Positions 21,501 to 29,055 of a stretch of DNA of 64,000 nt are shown here, in pieces. The notes below the pieces were generated by a model. The model did no database searches. It was not told the DNA's origin and was given only the letters and a program-made list of their open reading frames with translations. Source of the DNA: Branchiostoma floridae (lineage: Eukaryota; Chordata; Leptocardii; Amphioxiformes; Branchiostomatidae). Positions within the stretch are counted from its first letter, which is position 1. The number at the start of each line of letters is the position of its first letter. The position numbers and the translations under genes were made by a program. The stretch lies in assembly GCF_000003815.2 (NCBI RefSeq), contig NC_049984.1:18292326-18356325 (forward strand), written 5' to 3'.

Positions 21501-24500
21501 CAAAAAAATATTTTGCCAGGGGGAGGGCCTAGCAAAAAAATTTTTACCTGGGGGGAGGGCCTAGCAAAATTTTTTTGACCCGGCCCTCTGGCGACCGGCC
21601 CTCCCCCTCACTAAACGCCGTACGGTCCCTTAAAGCCTGCTTTCATCATAGTGTTTGCTAACAAAACCTTGAAACATTGACAGTACTGAATACACAGGCA
21701 CGTAAGACAGCCTTCTATAAGCAATAAGAAGGGCACAGTAAGCGAATGACAACAATGTGTTCTGACCCTTGGCTTCACCACCAACTGTGAAGTTCCAAAA
21801 GAGACAGAAAGGTCAGATTAAATGGAAAGTAACACCATTGTGGCTCTTGATACAGTGTTTAAAATACTGTCTGCATCCTAGACAGTTCAAATTCAAAAGT
21901 TGTGAAGAAAGATGAGTTACAGAAAATTACAGATTGTATACAGCTAATACCTAAATCATTTTCAATATTGCATTATGTGGTCAACTCTTCTGTAAAGGGT
22001 ATATGCCTATGTATTTGTAGAAAAGGGCATACAGCTAACATAATTTCTCTTTGATTAAAACAAATCCCTCATCGGAGTCATCCAGAGATAAATACCTGTG
22101 TTGACTGACTTGACCACACAGTCTGGAGGTGCTCTGGTCAGGGCTACGTAGTTGCCTTGGGGAGGATGGTTGAAGGCAGTGTCTCCAAAGTTGAACTGCA
22201 TTTCTCCATTCTATAACAGGGAAATTTGATATTCACTATGAACTAGGAAATAATATAATGTAAATTAGACAATAAATTGGAAGTTCGTAAAGAAATTTCA
22301 AGCAAATAACGAAGGCTATGAAATACACGTTAACAAATAATATATTTCTTTCACTATATTTCTTTGACTTATTATAACTTACCTACATCTAGCTGCTTTT
22401 CCATGCCTACAAACCTTGTGTGTATAACAGTAGGGCAACTTATACCAGCTAGACAGATTATTTATCTATACTACACTCTTATATGAATGCCATGGTCACA
22501 TTTACCTTGAGCACCACAGCTGCGAATATGGGCTGTTTCCTCAGATGGGGAGGGATCTCAAACGCAATACCAAGATCACTTCCTACAAGAAAAACATTAC
22601 AGGGTTACAATAGACTGCAATTGTGACATACAATAGAAGCCAGTTAATTGCACAACGGATTAACGCACACTTCTGTTAATTGCACTGAATCCCCAAATCT
22701 CAAACCTGTGCTGTCCAGCTGGATAACTTTGCGTTATTGCACCATCTGGATAATTACACGAAAAACACCGGCAAATGGGGTGTGCAATTAAACAGCTTTT
22801 ACTGTACTAGCAGATACTTCAATCTCTATTAAACAGCTTTTACTGTACTAGCAGATACTTCAATCTCTATGAGATTATACTGAAGAAAACTAATTTTGCT
22901 AGAAATGCCATTAGCACAAATGTAAAACCATAGCTAACCCTAATCATTTAGGATAAATCTTTACGCACACAAACATTCACTGTCAACAAACTGAACAAAG
23001 ATGTTACCATTCTTGGAGTAGCTGATAGTTCCATTGTCTAGGTCCAAGTAACATCCAATGGTGTCATTTTTACCGAAAGGCTGCAAAACATAGTTAAACA
23101 GTAACGCTATACATCAGTACTGGGTGACAGAATCAAGGTTATCAAGCTATAGACATGTATAAACTAAAGGCACATGTGGTACCCATGCAAAAGAAAATCA
23201 CAAATACAAATTAATTGTAATAAACATTCATTAAGAAAAAAAAAAACTACAGTATTTATACATACATTGTACAAGTGAGTGTGTAATGTATGTAAAAGAC
23301 AGTTTGTATGTACATGGTTTAAATCTGTCTACTAACTATTGACACTGTAAAGGCAATGGCAATATTTTCTTTAAAGTTGTCTATCTGTTGTCTTTTCTTA
23401 CCTCTCCATAGGTGTCAAACTGACGACCAAACGACTTCTTCCCAGTTCCACCAAACCCAAAACCGCTTTTGCATGTGCCTGAAAGTGAAACATACGTAAA
23501 AGCACATTGCAAGATTTGCCTTTCTTCAGGTTTATCTATATGGTGCCATCACTATAGTTATGTTATTCATAACTGACCTCTAAAATATAGTGTATGAGTA
23601 ATGTAACATCAGACTTCATCAACATTGTTGAGACAAAGTCACACTGTAAACCTGTACAGACTAGTAGAAACCAACACATACCGAGGTCCAGGTTTGCCTT
23701 GGAAGTAGAAAACCCCACTCTGCACAAGCCTTCATCAGTTACTGTAGCTTCATAGTAATACTTTCCTGTACAAAAGAGAAGAAGGGTACATACACTGTGT
23801 AAATCATTTCATGAAACTGTCATAGCCTTTCCATTTACATTAATATGTTTTATGTTGATCCTCAGCTTTAACTTTATCATGTATTCAATACAAGAAATAA
23901 CAAATTTACTTGATATAGCCCAATCTCTTAACTTACAAAATACTCTGGAAACACACCTTTGTTGACTACACCCTTGGTTGACCGCCCACCATGCCACTCC
24001 TTCTGTTCCCGACACTGGACCAACAGTCCATCTGGGCTGACCGCCAGGGAGAGACCCCGGTCGTATGGGTTGATCTGCCATTTATTGATAGCTGTATGCA
24101 TGTAAAACATCACAACATGGTTAATGATATACTGTAAATGTATTTAAGTTCGCGGGGATTTGATTTCGCGGTAGCGGGAAAAAGGTGGTTTTAAGTTTGC
24201 GGTAGCACCATGCACTGTAGTCTCTTACTGCTTTGGAAAAATGTTCGCAGTGGTTTCAATTTCGCGGTGAAGCGGCCACCGCGAAAACAACAAACATTTA
24301 AACCACTGCGAAAGTTTCTGCATTTACAGTACTACTTGTCTAAGTACATGTATGTACTAGGAGTGGTTATCGGTATAGTGTACCGTTACAAAACCATTTT
24401 TACTTGTTGAACCAGTCCGGAAAAAAAACAGACATGATGAAATTAAGTGAACCTGATGTTGAACCGATTAGAAAATGAAGAGATGATACAGGCAATACAG

Positions 24501-27500
24501 TGGCAAGCATTCACATTTTTTTTAGGCTTATGTCAGTTATGAATCCAAGAAAATTAAAGTAAAGGAGAGTCGATTGTCATTTTTACCAAGTTTCTACAGT
24601 CAAACTTAGCAGAGGCAGTTAGTGTTGTTTACATGAAGATAAGATACTCCACCGAACAGATTCCTTTGTAGTGAAATGGACCATTGTTTTGAGTATCGTC
24701 CATTTACAAACAATTAGGTACAGATTCAGGCCTGGACCAGGGCTTTGGACCTGGAATGTACCTGGGCCTGGACCTGAATTTTCTGTACTGGCACCCACCA
24801 CTAGTATGTATGATGTATTCAAAATATTTGTCTTGACAGTTGACAGGCTATCACTGGCCATAACTTCCAACACTCAGACTTACCTATTATCTGAATGAGT
24901 GATATATTTTTCTGTACTTCAGTGTACATTATTTCTAACTTTTCTCATACATTGAATGTAGCATACGTGCAACTCATATACATTCATCTAATAGTCACAG
25001 CAAGACTCAAACTAAGTTTAACATTAATATAAAAGTTTATCATATGAACCATATGAAACCTACTCGCTGAAACTCCAGCTTTCCTGATCTTTGGATTTTG
25101 TTCGTCCTTCAAAGTCTCCTGTACAATCTGGATCACTGGTATGGAGAAGGCCTGGAGAAATGGAAAGGCATTAGTTATATTCTATTTAGGCCATACCAAT
25201 TTAATTAATTGGTTCACGGATTCGCTCGCTCCTATTTTTTGGAAACAAAAAAAAAATTACTACTCAGCAAATTTTCACCATTAATGAAACCATTCACCAA
25301 CTTTCTGGTGTAGCAAATTGGCCTTTATATTATAAGCTCCTTTTAATAGAGTACTCTAAAATGTGGGTATTATTATTGCAGTTATATTTTTCACTCATGA
25401 AGAATGGGACAAACATAAAAACTGACACTACTTTTGTAATTTTCAACAAACAGGTGCTGTTACTGTACAGTAAGAGTGTTTTTGTACCTTTTTTCAAGCT
25501 GAAAACTTTTTATTCTTTATGTTTTGGATTAGCCCTTATCTTGACCTCAATCATTTTACAAATTTTTTTTCACCATATCGCTCCATATTTTTATGAAAAA
25601 ATCTGTGAACCAAGAAATTAAATTGGTGTGGCCTTAATAAGGATTATAAAGGATTTGCATTGCTTGTAAGAAATCAAATGACTTCCATTGTCATCTATAT
25701 ACAAATACAAATGCAAATGTACAGATACACAAGTTTCTTCTGCTCAAACCAAAAGTTGAAAAAAAGCTTACTCCAGTTTTACCACTGCCAGTCTCTGCTG
25801 CCTGCAACCAACAACAAACAACACAAATACATGTAAGTCAACAGTCCACAAGCCAAAACAGTGTTACAAACCAACCACAGTACAAAATTGGATTTGAGAA
25901 GATTGATTTACAGTTCCTTCTTCAGGATGAATACTGATGACTAGGGCTGGGTGCCGGTACAGAAAATTCAGGTCCAGGTAAAGATCCGGTTCAGGTCCAG
26001 AGGATCAGGTCCAGGTCCGGACCTGACCCTGATTCATACATGTAATGTAAAAACTTGTGAATGGACGGTTTGTACTGGTACACTGTACCGGTGTAATGTA
26101 TTATATCGTACATTATGTAACGTATTGAATTGTATTGAATGATCGTATTGTATTGTATATCTACTTGAATTTGTTTATTGTAACTGTCGCGTTCTGGCGA
26201 CCCTTCTTCGAACGGGGCGACCGCCCGCTCGAGTACCTCCGTTGCTCGGGCGGGCGATCTATACCTGTTCGGCGAAGGGTGTTCTAGAACCATCAGAACG
26301 CGACCAGTAATGCGATTTTGAATAAAAGTTAGTTTGGTTTGATCGTCTCCCAAAGACAGACGTGTCGTCAATTCGTCCGACCAGTTGTGTCATATCCAAC
26401 ACCGGTACCCAGCCCTACTGATGACCAATCACTTCTGAGCATAACTTGCGAGAGTTACAGACACATGATCTTCAAATATGTGACATCAGCATTTGGTCAG
26501 ACCTTTGTGTTGGAAGAAAGTTTATCATTGTATTATGAAACAGAGCATCATCAAACATAATGCACCTACCATCAGGACGTCACCCCCTCCTAAGATCAGA
26601 GGAATGGACTCAGCCTGGATATCTGTCGGGAGCCTGTTGAAGGATACAATTGATTGTTTACTTTGAAGTGTTTGCAGGGCTCGAAATACTGGGTGCACCT
26701 AAATATTTTCTTAGGTTTATGTATATAAAGATAAAAAAAGTATACTAGTATACATGTACATCATCTTCTTGACCTCTAAGTATTAGAAAGATAATAAAAA
26801 TGTCTGTCATGGTACTTGTTTAAGAATTTGATAGCTTGTAACTAAGTTTTGTTTATTGCATAAATTTGAGTGGTGCACCCAAAAAGTTTTTGGAACACCC
26901 AATTTTTTAAGCTGGGTGCACCAGTGCACCTAATCCCAAAAATGAATTTCGAGCCCTGGTTTGTCCCCAGATCCGACTGGACTGTCCACGCCCAGTGTAG
27001 AACAACGTGGCAAAAACTGTCTGAACTGTCTGTAGCCGCCACGCATCAACATATGATGCATGCGAACGATAGATTGATTGATTGTTTGTAAAAATTGGAT
27101 GATGTCACAGAGATAAAACATTTAAAGACAGAATGATTATGGTTCCCGAGTAAACCTACGGGGTAATGTTACATGTAGATGTACTGTTCATGGGAAATGT
27201 TTGTCACAGTAGTGAGAAGATGATACATGAGGGTAACTAGGCAGAAGACACAAAAAATTTTGAGGCAATTTTAAGTTTGCAGTGAAGAGGCAATTGCTAA
27301 AATGGTGAATCATTGAATGTTTTGAGAGTATTGTGAAAATTTCCCATTTTACTGTATAACTGTGTCTATCAATAATAATGGTATCTTTAGACGAGCGGTT
27401 TCAACTGGAGTGAGACTCCTGCCTATAAACCGAAGAACTCTACTCTACTCTACTCTACACTACTTTACTCTAACGTTACTCTATTGATTCCATGTGCATA

Positions 27501-29055
27501 AATCATCAAGAAATTGTTTTGGAAGATTCAAGAACCCAAAATGACATGCAAAGAGACGTGAACTGCCTGACATCATTCAGTCAAAAAGGCTGAGTTCCCG
27601 CAATGCACAAAATATTCTCCATGTACTTACAACCAATCCATCTCCTCCACGGCCTTTGAGATCTCCGGCATAACGCCCATTTCTGAGGAACACAAAAATA
27701 TTCCTCAGAAAAATCTTAAGCATACATCTCAAAAACATGACATCACGTGCAACAGTATATGATGATAATATACTGGAATGGCACATTGGCAGATTTTAGT
27801 TTAGATTTTTTTGCGTAGTGTAGAATAGATAAACCTGACGTTGCATTTGCATGCAGTGTCTATCCGGGTTCGCCACATGGACACTTGGTCTTGCCGGCAT
27901 CCAACTATGCACGAATAAATAGTGTAACAGTGGTGTTTAAGTACTGCCTATCGTCCTTGCCCAAACGTGTAACAGTGGTGTTCAAGGACTGCTAAACCGA
28001 AGACGCCTAAGGGCTTAAGCCTTTATGGCCGAACGGTTTGCACGTTCGATTTGTGATCCGGCTGCCCGGGTTTGGCGCGGGTTCGAATCCCGGGAGTCGG
28101 GGTGTTGTTTCTTTCTGTTCTTACTCGCCCCTCTGGTTGTTTCACTGGTTCCCACACCGGGAATCGAACCCGGGCCTTGGCGGTGAGAGCGCCAAATCCT
28201 AACCACTAGACCACTAGTGCTTTTGTGGCGACGGTGATAGCGTTCGTGATTTGTGATCTGCCGACCCCGGTTCGATTCCGGGTAGGGGGCATGTTGTTTC
28301 TTTCTGTTCTTACTCGCCCCTCTGAATTTCTACAATGGTTCCCACGCCGGCCCTGTGAGTAACAGGCTAGTATGTGCCACACAGGGATGTCGATCTCGGA
28401 GATTCGAGGACGAATCTTGAAAAGAAAAGGGGAGTAGTGTAACAGTGGTGTTCAAGGACTGCTAAACCGAAGACGCCTAACGGCTTAAGCCTTTATGGCC
28501 GAACGGTTTGCACGTTCGATTTGTGATCCGGCTGCCCGGGTTTGGCGCGGGTTCGAATCCCGGGAGTCGGGGTGTTGTTTCTTTCTGTTCTACTCGCCCC
28601 TCTGGTTGTTTCACTGGTTCCCATGCCGACCCTGTGAGTAACAGGCTAGCGGATGTGCCACACAGGGATGTCGAACTCGGAGATTCGAGGACGAATCTTG
28701 AAGAAAAGGGGGAGTAGTGTAACAGTGGTGTTTAAGTACTGCCTATCGTCCTTGCCCAACGGCACTAGTGCTTTTGCGGCGACAATGATAGCGTTCGTGA
28801 TTTGTGATCTGCCGACCCCGGTTCGATTCCGGGTAGGGGGCATGTTGTTTCTTTCTGTTCTTACTCGCCCCTCTGGTTGTTTCAATAGCTCCACAACTCA
28901 TTTGCATTCGACGCATTCCCATAAAAATTTCACAGTAAAGTACCAACTTGGTGCATTACATAGTACAACTTTCTGGGTACCAAGTTTCCCTATGGAACGG
29001 AAGAAAATAGCTTTTTCGGCAATAATCCTGAACATTTACCCTCAAACGCCGCCAT
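12504..29055 (-). CDS. DDX1: ATP-dependent RNA helicase DDX1, complete
   Basis: Twenty-eight coding exons (high to low): 29055-29040, 27682-27631, 26633-26570, 25801-25772, 25151-25064, 24091-23957, 23765-23682, 23478-23402, 23080-23008, 22582-22506, 22210-22096, 19640-19579, 19366-19343, 19156-19104, 18796-18736, 18133-18062, 17673-17647, 17526-17437, 17159-17109, 16948-16874, 16499-16385, 15340-15194, 14674-14583, 14402-14330, 14058-13980, 13856-13814, 13340-13124, 12631-12504. The sum is 2220 nt, 739 residues, against 740 in human DDX1. Order: [14 protein letters not shown] start, [12 protein letters not shown], Walker [10 protein letters not shown], an inserted SPRY domain (NPYDRG to VVLK), [14 protein letters not shown], motif II, SATLHS, then the second RecA lobe with TDVAARG and [11 protein letters not shown]1 acts in tRNA-ligase complexes, mRNA 3' processing and RNA-DNA hybrid removal. 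Motif II reads DECD, not DEAD: the exon ending at 17647 supplies D-E-C and the next exon supplies D. Some exons are only 24-30 nt. The start sits in an AAGATGGCGGC context. Confidence 0.97.
14982..15021. repeat. Perfect 13-bp stem-loop in a DDX1 intron
   Basis: GACCTAGTCTCGA at 14982-14994 and TCGAGACTAGGTC at 15009-15021 are exact reverse complements around a 14-nt loop. It is probably the end-to-end remnant of a small palindromic element. Confidence 0.7.
15854..16138. mobile_element. CAGGGCTCGAAAT-family MITE, copy 2
   Basis: The ends CAGGACTCGAAATAC and GTATTTCGAGCCCTG are inverted, flanked by the 5-bp duplication AACTT at 15849-15853 and 16139-16143. The interior carries repeated ACCTGCACC words on both strands. 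In a DDX1 intron. Confidence 0.8.
18182..18572. mobile_element. GGTACC-rich TIR repeat, diverged copy
   Basis: It begins TAGGGGTGGGAACTACTGG and ends CTGGTGCCCCTAG, with an internal GACCTGATCC and GTGAAAACTTGTGAAT. These are shared with the copies at 24354, 25941, 32700 and 48806. In a DDX1 intron. Confidence 0.5.
19862..19974. repeat. (ACTC)n microsatellite
   Basis: About 28 near-perfect tetranucleotide units. Read on the minus strand this is (TGAG)n, the same tail repeat that ends the LINE fragment at 9832. It could be the tail of a fully truncated copy on the minus strand (inference). Confidence 0.9.
20082..21629. mobile_element. 1.55-kb Harbinger-like element without an obvious transposase
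   Basis: The ends GGGACCGTACGGCATTTAG and CTAAACGCCGTACGGTCCC are inverted, with TTA on both sides (20079-20081 and 21630-21632). The subterminal regions are G-rich, with repeated GGGGAGGGCCTAGCAAAAAA words on the left and again on the right. The interior holds about four diverged tandem units of roughly 190-206 bp (starting near 20223, 20429, 20634 and 20820), each with a CCAGCAAA word and most with a GGCGTTTCAGAGGG-like word. One unit-like piece also occurs near 33500 in a DHODH intron. It sits in DDX1 intron 11. No transposase-like frame seen. Confidence 0.75.
22631..22804. mobile_element. Tigger/pogo-like MITE
   Basis: The left end CAATAGAAGCCAGTTAATTG and the complement of the right end CAGTAAAAGCTGTTTAATTG form inverted repeats, with TA on both sides (22629-22630, 22805-22806). 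CAGT-type ends and a TA target suggest pogo/Tigger. 174 bp, non-coding, in a DDX1 intron. Confidence 0.65.
22788..22869. repeat. Exact 41-bp tandem duplication
   Basis: 22788-22828 and 22829-22869 are identical, beginning TTAAACAGCTTTTACTGTAC. The unit spans the right end of the Tigger-like element plus adjacent host sequence, so the duplication happened after that insertion. Confidence 0.9.
24132..24329. mobile_element. CGCGGTGG-type MITE, copy 1
   Basis: The ends CTGTAAATGTATTTAAG and CTGCATTTACAG lie between TA dinucleotides. The interior repeats TTCGCGG / CCGCGAA words in both directions. The same family is at 34044, 45385 and 54704. The TA target suggests a Tc1/mariner-mobilised family. 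Confidence 0.75.
24354..24805. mobile_element. GGTACC-rich TIR repeat, copy
   Basis: It starts TACTAGGAGTGGTTATCGG and ends GGCACCCACCACTAGTA, with an internal run of GGCCTGGACC / GACCTGAATTTTCTGTAC words. Same family as 25941-26421 and 32700-33073. Confidence 0.6.
25189..25633. mobile_element. Harbinger-type MITE, GGCCATACC copy
   Basis: The ends GGCCATACCAATTTAATT and AATTAAATTGGTGTGGCC are inverted and flanked by TTA (25186-25188, 25634-25636). It also has a second inverted pair, TTGGTTCACGGATT at the left and AATCTGTGAACCAA at the right. It is about 85 bp longer than its relatives at 30802 and 47313. In a DDX1 intron. Confidence 0.8.
25941..26421. mobile_element. GGTACC-rich TIR repeat carrying an LTR-like insert
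   Basis: It begins GACTAGGGCTGGGTGCCGG and ends ACACCGGTACCCAGCCCTAC. Its interior is interrupted by an unrelated segment from about 26187 that starts TGTCGCGTTCTGG and has a GC-rich inverted repeat (GGCGACCGCCCG / CGGGCGGGCGAT) and an AATAAA near 26320. This may be a solo LTR of about 200 bp. No target duplication could be confirmed for the insert. In a DDX1 intron. Confidence 0.5.
26675..26958. mobile_element. CAGGGCTCGAAAT-family MITE, copy 3
   Basis: The ends CAGGGCTCGAAATACTGGG and TTTCGAGCCCTG are flanked by the 5-bp duplication GTTTG (26670-26674 and 26959-26963). The interior has GGTGCACC words. In a DDX1 intron directly upstream of exon 26633-26570. Confidence 0.8.
27968..28144 (+). 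repeat. Type B LTR inserted inside the type A 5' LTR
   Basis: 177 bp, nearly identical to the B LTR at 28438-28613. It starts TGTAACAG and ends TTTCA. Its core holds a box-A-like TGGCCGAACGG and a box-B GGTTCGAATCC whose surrounding T-arm stem CGGG/CCCG is perfect, with spacing like a class II (Leu/Ser-type) tRNA. The anticodon arm is not clean, so this is a tRNA-like core and not a functional tRNA gene. Confidence 0.8.
28146..28213 (-). pseudogene. Antisense copy of mature tRNA-Glu(CTC) lacking its first 7 nt
   Basis: Read on the minus strand this is tRNA-Glu from about position 8 to the 3' end: D-arm, anticodon CTC in GGCGCTCTCACCGCC, T-arm GGGTTCGATTCCC, the 3' acceptor strand TGTGGGA, discriminator A and CCA. 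The 5' acceptor strand is missing, so it cannot fold as a tRNA. CCA is not encoded in eukaryotic tRNA genes, so the copy derives from a mature tRNA. The CCA end abuts the LTR with one extra C, exactly where a primer binding site belongs. Confidence 0.88.
28438..28613 (+). repeat. Type B LTR of the TRIM-like element
   Basis: Begins TGTAACAGTGGTGTTCAAGG directly after a purine tract and ends TTTCA. It is followed after one base by the primer binding site TGGTTCCCATGCC. The tRNA-like core is as in the copy at 27968-28144. Confidence 0.85.
28718..28884 (+). repeat. Type A 3' LTR of the TRIM-like element
   Basis: 167 bp, TG...CA. It shares its first 15 bp and last about 45 bp (TGTTGTTTCTTTCTGTTC onward) with type B, but has a different core: a class I tRNA-like segment with box B GGTTCGATTCC inside a perfect CCCGG/CCGGG stem. 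It is uninterrupted, so it shows where the 5' copy was split. Confidence 0.85.

Follow-up and report, generated by a model that had tools for sequence, protein, structure and literature searches.

How does a long antisense copy of a tRNA come to stand directly behind a long terminal repeat (LTR), at the place of a short primer site? We addressed this question at a locus of the lancelet Branchiostoma floridae, within a stretch of 64,000 nucleotides (nt) from contig NC_049984.1 of assembly GCF_000003815.2 (positions 18,292,326 to 18,356,325, forward strand; hereafter the window, whose own numbering is used throughout). The locus, at 27923-28884, is a tandem of very small LTR elements, here treated as terminal-repeat retrotransposons in miniature (TRIM), and carries the 4-bp target duplication ATAG on both sides. 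An earlier note on this DNA had proposed that it preserves plus-strand strong-stop DNA extended through the tRNA primer, and 50 further tRNA-Glu sites and two tRNA-Lys sites in the genome now support that proposal. We consider it very probable that these composites are integrated reverse-transcription products whose plus-strand strong-stop DNA copied the primer tRNA past A58, to or close to its 5' end. Read from the sequences, the case is built on a mature, CCA-bearing template, unmixed isodecoders, a preserved primer spacing, joints private to each locus, perfect target duplications in 17 of 19 composites, primers of both the Glu and the Lys type, and several LTR families.

A copy of mature tRNA-Glu behind a complete LTR

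The unit in question begins with a complete type B LTR (LTR-B; 27968..28144, plus strand, 177 nt, TGTAACAG...TTGTTTCA), which would be the U3-R-U5 part of the captured strong-stop DNA. A spacer of one base, C (28145..28145, plus strand), separates this LTR from the primer copy, and the same base is found in the ordinary copy at 28614. Next come 68 nt of mature tRNA-Glu(CTC) on the minus strand (28146..28213), running from the CCA to nt 8 and of the isodecoder A7-U66. The extent is as the earlier note had described it, and the match to the tRNA proved exact: the copy equals nt 8 to nt 72 of the tRNA at locus L049 plus CCA, with zero mismatches. At L049, ARAGORN finds three tRNA-Glu(CTC) genes, and the exact 72-nt tRNA is present on both strands without CCA. 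Since the CCA is not encoded in these genes and is present in the window copy, the template was the mature tRNA. Among the best 40 places in the genome, ten gene-like sites were 100% identical over the 60 nt shared by query and gene. Chance is excluded by a reversed 31-mer control, which gave 0 matches versus 27 for the true 31-mer. Rfam detects the tRNA copy in the window, and ARAGORN reported no tRNA there.

The two other primer sites of the element match tRNA-Glu over about 15 nt, as the note had said: the site at 28336 (TGGTTCCCACGCCGG) is exact to one isodecoder and that at 28615 (TGGTTCCCATGCCGA) has two mismatches.

A genome-wide series of tRNA-Glu read-through sites

We searched the genome with the primer motif at three lengths. 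The 15-nt motif was found at 235 sites (reversed control, 1), the 18-nt motif at 55 (reversed control, 0) and the 21-nt motif, which requires copying past A58, at 40 exact sites (reversed control, 0). All 55 of the 18-mer sites were read, and 51 of them hold a tRNA-Glu copy of at least 31 nt, ending between nt 1 and nt 45. The other four (L069 and L079, which are alike, L072 and L073) match over 18-20 nt and were taken as ordinary primer sites, L072 on match length alone. L044 was counted among the 51 with no LTR family identified, and L068, which reads TGC in place of TGG and is a tRNA gene by sequence, was excluded from the counts. Many of the later loci were covered as 300-600 bases, with the LTR starts outside those spans.

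All 51 copies carry the CCA, and it adjoins the LTR in relatives of the window element also: the spacer between LTR end and CCA is 0-1 nt in nearly all copies, with a longer gap in L047. The genome holds two tRNA-Glu isodecoders, distinguished by nt 7 and the base paired to it. Forty-five copies fit the A7-U66 type and six the G7-C66 type, and none is mixed, in that no copy departs from its best-fitting type at nt 7 or at the pairing base. Five of the six G7-C66 copies extend to nt 7 and show both bases, although nt 7 of L065 may stem from the acceptor.

This arrangement bears on two other explanations. A tRNA could have primed itself, been reverse transcribed alone and had its cDNA joined to LTR ends, as PMC12220202 proposes for a tRNA-Gly adjoining an HIV-1 provirus, where a mature, CCA-bearing tRNA is indeed described beside the provirus end. 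In the lancelet genome, however, the tRNA fits the element's own primer site at 53 sites, antisense, at the primer position and nearly throughout with a spacer of 0-1 nt; Glu copies go with Glu-primed elements and Lys copies with Lys-primed ones, although our searches were aimed at copies in the primer position and other arrangements were not looked for. We regard self-priming as very unlikely. Alternatively, tRNA-Glu genes being numerous in the genome, LTR elements might have landed beside ordinary tRNA genes, or the joints might be artefacts of assembly or cloning. Against this, the genes that were read lack CCA, the copies end at many internal points, decayed older copies stand alongside perfect ones (22 of the 51 are without any difference from the tRNA) and target duplications are present, so that this explanation can practically be dismissed.

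The copies also showed some features of their own. The resident primer sites of the window read CACGCC or CATGCC, nearer to G7-C66, and yet 45 of the 51 read-through copies are A7-U66; mismatched priming may favour read-through, or the A7-U66 tRNA may simply be commoner. Small insertions or deletions cluster near nt 43-50 (variable loop and T stem) in L058, L062, L065, L066, L071 and L077. In L059 (G000:C7:18578236-18578736), a later insertion apparently splits the tRNA copy behind nt 23, and the copy then continues to about nt 5.

Joints, acceptors and target duplications

Each of the 51 right-hand joints is unique; L037 and L040 share the same acceptor point with different tRNA ends. This finding decides the question of a master element, that is, whether a single element gained the tRNA piece and then carried it through the genome by ordinary retrotransposition, which the earlier note had named among the outcomes that would overturn its proposal. 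It is true that LTR-B plus tRNA is found over nearly the whole 246-nt query in at least eight loci including the window, and the LTR-CCA junction recurs at many loci. However, no right-hand joint is repeated, the points at which the tRNA copies end lie between nt 1 and nt 45, and several LTR types, two tRNA-Glu isodecoders and a tRNA-Lys are involved. Private joints mean that the tRNA copy was not inherited from a master copy, and we consider a master element extremely improbable. The left flanks showed no mutual likeness among the 21 loci compared.

The sequence reached at the joint was sorted by our own reading, with several of the short matches (L016, L076, L078) being only 10-12 nt long. 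Element sequence is the acceptor in 32 of 51 joints, and many of these are re-copied to the exact LTR end. The LTR in direct orientation accounts for 21, often with just the final part of the LTR, the primer site or internal region for three (L013, L036, L052), the 3' part of a Gypsy family, Gypsy-C, for three (L015, L043, L046) and the inverted LTR for five. In L011, L037 and L039 the re-copied LTR is followed by a finished element. Microhomology was assessed on 17 of the 51 joints, 16 of which were resolved (all but L062). These 16 share 17 bp in total, a mean of 1.06 versus 0.33 expected (P about 6e-4), with 0 or 1 shared bases at the five nt-1 joints and 0 to 4 at the other eleven.

Target duplications were sought in 22 loci, of which 19 had both outer LTR ends (L050, L052 and L058 lacked one); the mutated right LTR end of L062 was picked by eye. 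L034 was left out, its right end being an inverted LTR start, where CCAC may be duplicated with an offset of one base. A perfect 4-bp duplication was found in 17 of the 19 composites, versus 2 of 342 mismatched locus pairs, and hence the composites were most likely inserted by integrase. In the 17 loci the LTR start TGTAAC has the duplication to its left.

The strongest competitor is that LTR-tRNA DNA from reverse transcription was captured at chromosome breaks by integrase-independent end joining. The window itself lends it some support. There, the LTR-B/tRNA piece lies between nt 45 and nt 46 of a type A LTR (LTR-A), with no base lost; once joined, its flanks (42 nt) equal the uninterrupted LTR-A of L039 with 0 mismatches. 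The left joint is the exact LTR end, and the right joint shares CA (28212-28213) between tRNA copy and LTR-A, a 2-bp microhomology within the 2-3 bp that the earlier note had seen. The note had also reported no target duplication, which is right for the ends of this piece within LTR-A; the composite as a whole is flanked by ATAG. Elsewhere, 19 of the 51 copies continue into sequence that could not be assigned, and two of them, L033 and L038, lack the first LTR nucleotides. On the other side stand the integrase-type duplications in all but two of the composites with both LTR ends and the acceptors in element sequence. As a general explanation, end joining is possible and in our judgement unlikely. 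The note had left the choice between end joining and template switching open. Many of the joints that could be resolved have the appearance of template switching in the course of reverse transcription, followed by integration; the insertion in the window's LTR-A is ambiguous between the two.

Extent of tRNA copying and m1A58

Positions in the tRNA are numbered sequentially, so that A58 is nt 57. Among the 51 copies, copying ended at nt 1 in 9, nt 2-6 in 12, nt 7-11 in 13, nt 12-23 in 9 and nt 24-45 in 8, and at nt 46-57 in none; individual end points are uncertain by a few bases owing to microhomology. The commonest single end points are nt 1 (nine copies) and nt 5 (seven, two of which, L045 and L047, count only when a mismatch around nt 8-9 is bridged). 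The earlier note had placed the end in the window at nt 8-10 and pointed to m1G9 or m2G10, which often lie there. With end points spread over nt 1-45, a stop at nt 9 or 10 is not the rule, and a preference of this kind was not supported. Differences at nt 8-9 occur in three copies (L042, L045, L047), too few to interpret.

The base opposite A58 is altered in 1 of the 51 copies, on account of which most templates probably lacked m1A58. Differences from the tRNA are enriched at CpG (34 in 489 cells versus 38 in 2747 elsewhere), as later decay would give. Under-methylated tRNA-Glu has a precedent elsewhere, since m1A58 is described as low on the tRNA-Glu(UUC) packaged in SARS-CoV-2 particles (PMC13191261).

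Other primers and a TRIM-Gypsy hybrid

A tRNA-Lys(CTT) pattern gave seven genome matches, two of them with CCA, L082 and L083, which were both read. In each, an LTR is followed by the tRNA-Lys copy, an LTR end or primer site, the internal region and an LTR; ARAGORN calls a tRNA-Lys(CTT) in L083. A Leu pattern gave six matches, one of which (L089) is a tRNA-Leu gene, and none of them enters the counts. By eye, L085 (G000:C1:1840500-1840800) and L087 (C9:22691700-22692000) each hold some 40-50 nt copied from tRNA-Leu(TAG) together with its CCA, with no verified LTR beside them. At precisely the base opposite A58 they depart from the tRNA (with G and A), as would follow from misreading of m1A58 and unlike the tRNA-Glu copies. 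Also by eye, L090 (G000:C13:10738870-10739170) holds a tRNA-Leu-like extended primer copy followed by what seems to be a Gypsy RNase H motif.

Read-through is found in other LTR families too. Gypsy-C has an LTR of 510 nt and, in the portion of it present at L046, an integrase domain (rve), and shows read-through at L041 (target duplication ACAA), L043 (GTCC, with LTRs 99.4% alike), L046 and L063. A further LTR family does so at L067 (GATG). Locus L015 (G000:C13:18474361-18480605) is a hybrid, in which a TRIM LTR is followed by a tRNA-Glu copy to nt 10, a Gypsy-C 3' region and a Gypsy-C LTR, with CTTG on both sides. Before it integrated, the molecule seems to have been begun on the TRIM and completed on DNA of Gypsy-C. 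Such a hybrid would place TRIM and Gypsy-C in the same particle, and this one locus therefore points to Gypsy-C as a candidate helper of the TRIM through co-packaging.

Layout of the window element

The composite as a whole reads LTR-A nt 1-45, complete LTR-B, one base, antisense tRNA-Glu(CTC), the remainder of LTR-A, a primer site with internal region, LTR-B, an internal region and LTR-A. All parts lie on the plus strand except the tRNA copy. The left ATAG (27919..27922), placed by the duplication test, precedes the first 45 nt of LTR-A (27923..27967), the interrupted 5' LTR of the composite. After the tRNA copy, LTR-A resumes from nt 48 on (28214..28334). The first internal region (28336..28437) extends from the ordinary primer site (28336-28350) through the polypurine tract, and is followed by the second LTR-B (28438..28613), the second internal region (28615..28717), which has its primer site and the polypurine tract AAAAGGGGGAG, the 3' LTR-A (28718..28884) and the right ATAG (28885..28888). 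The LTRs measure 167-177 nt and the internal regions, each with primer site and purine tract, 102-103 nt; there is no coding region.

An exact box B (GGTTCGAATCC) is present in all four LTR copies that span that part (at 28080 in the first LTR-B and at 28269, 28550 and 28820) and elsewhere in the 64 kb only within the tRNA copy. An exact box A is confined to the type B LTRs. The Rfam tRNA model leaves the LTRs of 28430-28900 unmatched at E 10; one box B falls within a weak tmRNA match (E 0.16).

Around the TRIM, dispersed repeats form two sets about 5.5 kb and 8.3 kb apart (25185-25636/30798-31165 and 24607-24805/32890-33071), with an inverted third copy in one set at 25940-26029. A 41-nt unit is perfectly duplicated head-to-tail at 22787-22868.

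Discussion

The end products described above suggest the following course of events, in which all steps after the copying of the tRNA are deduced from those products. Plus-strand strong-stop DNA would begin at the polypurine tract, copy U3-R-U5 and enter the tRNA still joined to the minus strand. The normal stop is m1A58, after 18 nt of tRNA (PMC13191261); here, copying would pass A58 and run to or near the tRNA 5' end. Once the tRNA is removed, the long 3' end would be unable to prime at the primer site of the minus strand, because its 3' terminus mismatches the primer-site complement there. Its tip would instead anneal elsewhere by zero to four bases. A tip landing on the LTR of the minus strand would yield LTR-tRNA-LTR, after which the second transfer would proceed as usual (L011, L037, L039). 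Other molecules would land in or next to the primer site (L013, L036, L052, L082, L083), far downstream on a minus strand, whether of their own element or of one packaged with it (L015, L043, L046), or else on the strand opposite (L034, L063 and others). The finished linear DNA, having ordinary LTR ends, would integrate with 4-bp duplications. The order of the strand transfers is an inference, as are the lack of m1A58 on the template and the way in which the window piece entered LTR-A.

Several points weigh against this account. In HIV-1, strand transfer is described as served only by the shorter products and not by the full-length one (PMC13191261). The acceptor could not be assigned in 19 of the 51 copies, and these may have arisen otherwise than by template switching and integration. 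L035, with 1 of 4 bases, is without a target duplication, and L065 agrees in 3 of 4; some of the LTR-tRNA-LTR-tail forms could be later solo LTRs, produced by recombination of longer elements. Pro and His patterns gave no match in the genome, although these followed vertebrate tRNA sequences and divergence in this animal could hide sites. In the window piece, an exact LTR start lies inside another LTR with no duplication, which plain template switching would explain poorly, and the return to LTR-A is likewise not predicted by it; capture of a fragment in a broken LTR-A, or one-ended self-integration, would fit as well. Finally, a genome-wide loss of the m1A58 methylase as the cause was rejected, as its family (PF08704) was found, with three stretches covering the GCD14 profile on C1 (GCD14 was searched and its partner GCD10 was not). 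GCD14 is what we take to be the TRMT61A family.

The intermediate itself has been met before. In HIV-1, copying to the tRNA 5' end is reported with unmodified tRNA, as is extension past A58 in TRMT6-mutant cells (PMC13191261). The resulting product, termed 'P1' there, is the same intermediate, U3-R-U5 with a full or near-full tRNA copy; it came from unmodified tRNA or mutant cells, whereas here it is seen at 51 sites of an assembly, many of them finished and integrated. A murine leukaemia virus circle (Colicelli and Goff 1986, as described in PMC12220202) carried a tRNA-Gly, a spurious primer, between its LTRs, with 4 nt missing at the 5' end. That nearly complete copy resembles the 7 of 51 copies here that lack exactly 4 nt (with L045 and L047 if the mismatch is bridged), but it was a single cloned circle with a spurious primer, while the lancelet copies are many, chromosomal and made from the regular primer. 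The HIV-1 provirus with tRNA-Gly (PMC12220202) likewise has a mature, CCA-bearing tRNA at its end with 5 nt missing at the 5' end; unlike in the present series, this is a non-primer tRNA, on the host side of the LTR, and is attributed to self-priming. The 4 and 5 nt missing in these retroviral cases are close to the nt-5 group described here.

As to the elements, the Helenus group, or tRNA-type TRIMp3 (PMC10886601), consists of similarly tiny, gene-less and tRNA-primed LTR elements with a box B in the LTR, 4-bp duplications in animals and Gypsy as the likely helper. The animal helper was inferred there from primer-site likeness, in contrast to the physical hybrid L015 here. The main text of PMC10886601 does not contain the words lancelet, amphioxus, Branchiostoma or Cephalochord-, and we met no tRNA read-through in the portions cited here. 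We file the window elements, putative RNA polymerase III (pol III) TRIMs, as Helenus-like only, since a search of their LTRs with the Rfam tRNA model gave no match. Cassandra (PMC7215508), a pol III TRIM, forms LTR-internal-LTR-internal-LTR arrays like those of window 28336-28884 and L013. It differs in being of the 5S rRNA type and from plants, and tRNA copies were not met in those parts of its description that we draw on. We found no report of a comparable natural genome series in the open-access literature, mostly judged by title and abstract, and older or subscription work may exist. As far as could be found, then, the intermediate was already known, and its frequent rescue and genomic record are new.

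The second strand transfer has been held to require the stop at m1A58, with full tRNA copies described as unusable for it (PMC13191261). The 51 plus 2 natural events recorded here are cases in which the stop failed, and integration followed in many of them. The series informs on where reverse transcriptase ends on tRNA in vivo, on the rescue of over-extended ends and on the sharing of particles, and with L015 a putative pol III TRIM gains a candidate helper. There is about an even chance, in our estimate, that LTR-retrotransposon replication in the germline of this animal regularly branches into full copying of the primer tRNA, owing to tRNA-Glu that lacks m1A58 even though the methylase gene is present, and that the over-extended end is rescued by jumping to an LTR, a primer site or co-packaged elements and so creates new structures and TRIM-Gypsy hybrids. 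The methylation state of germline tRNA-Glu thereby becomes a testable cause.

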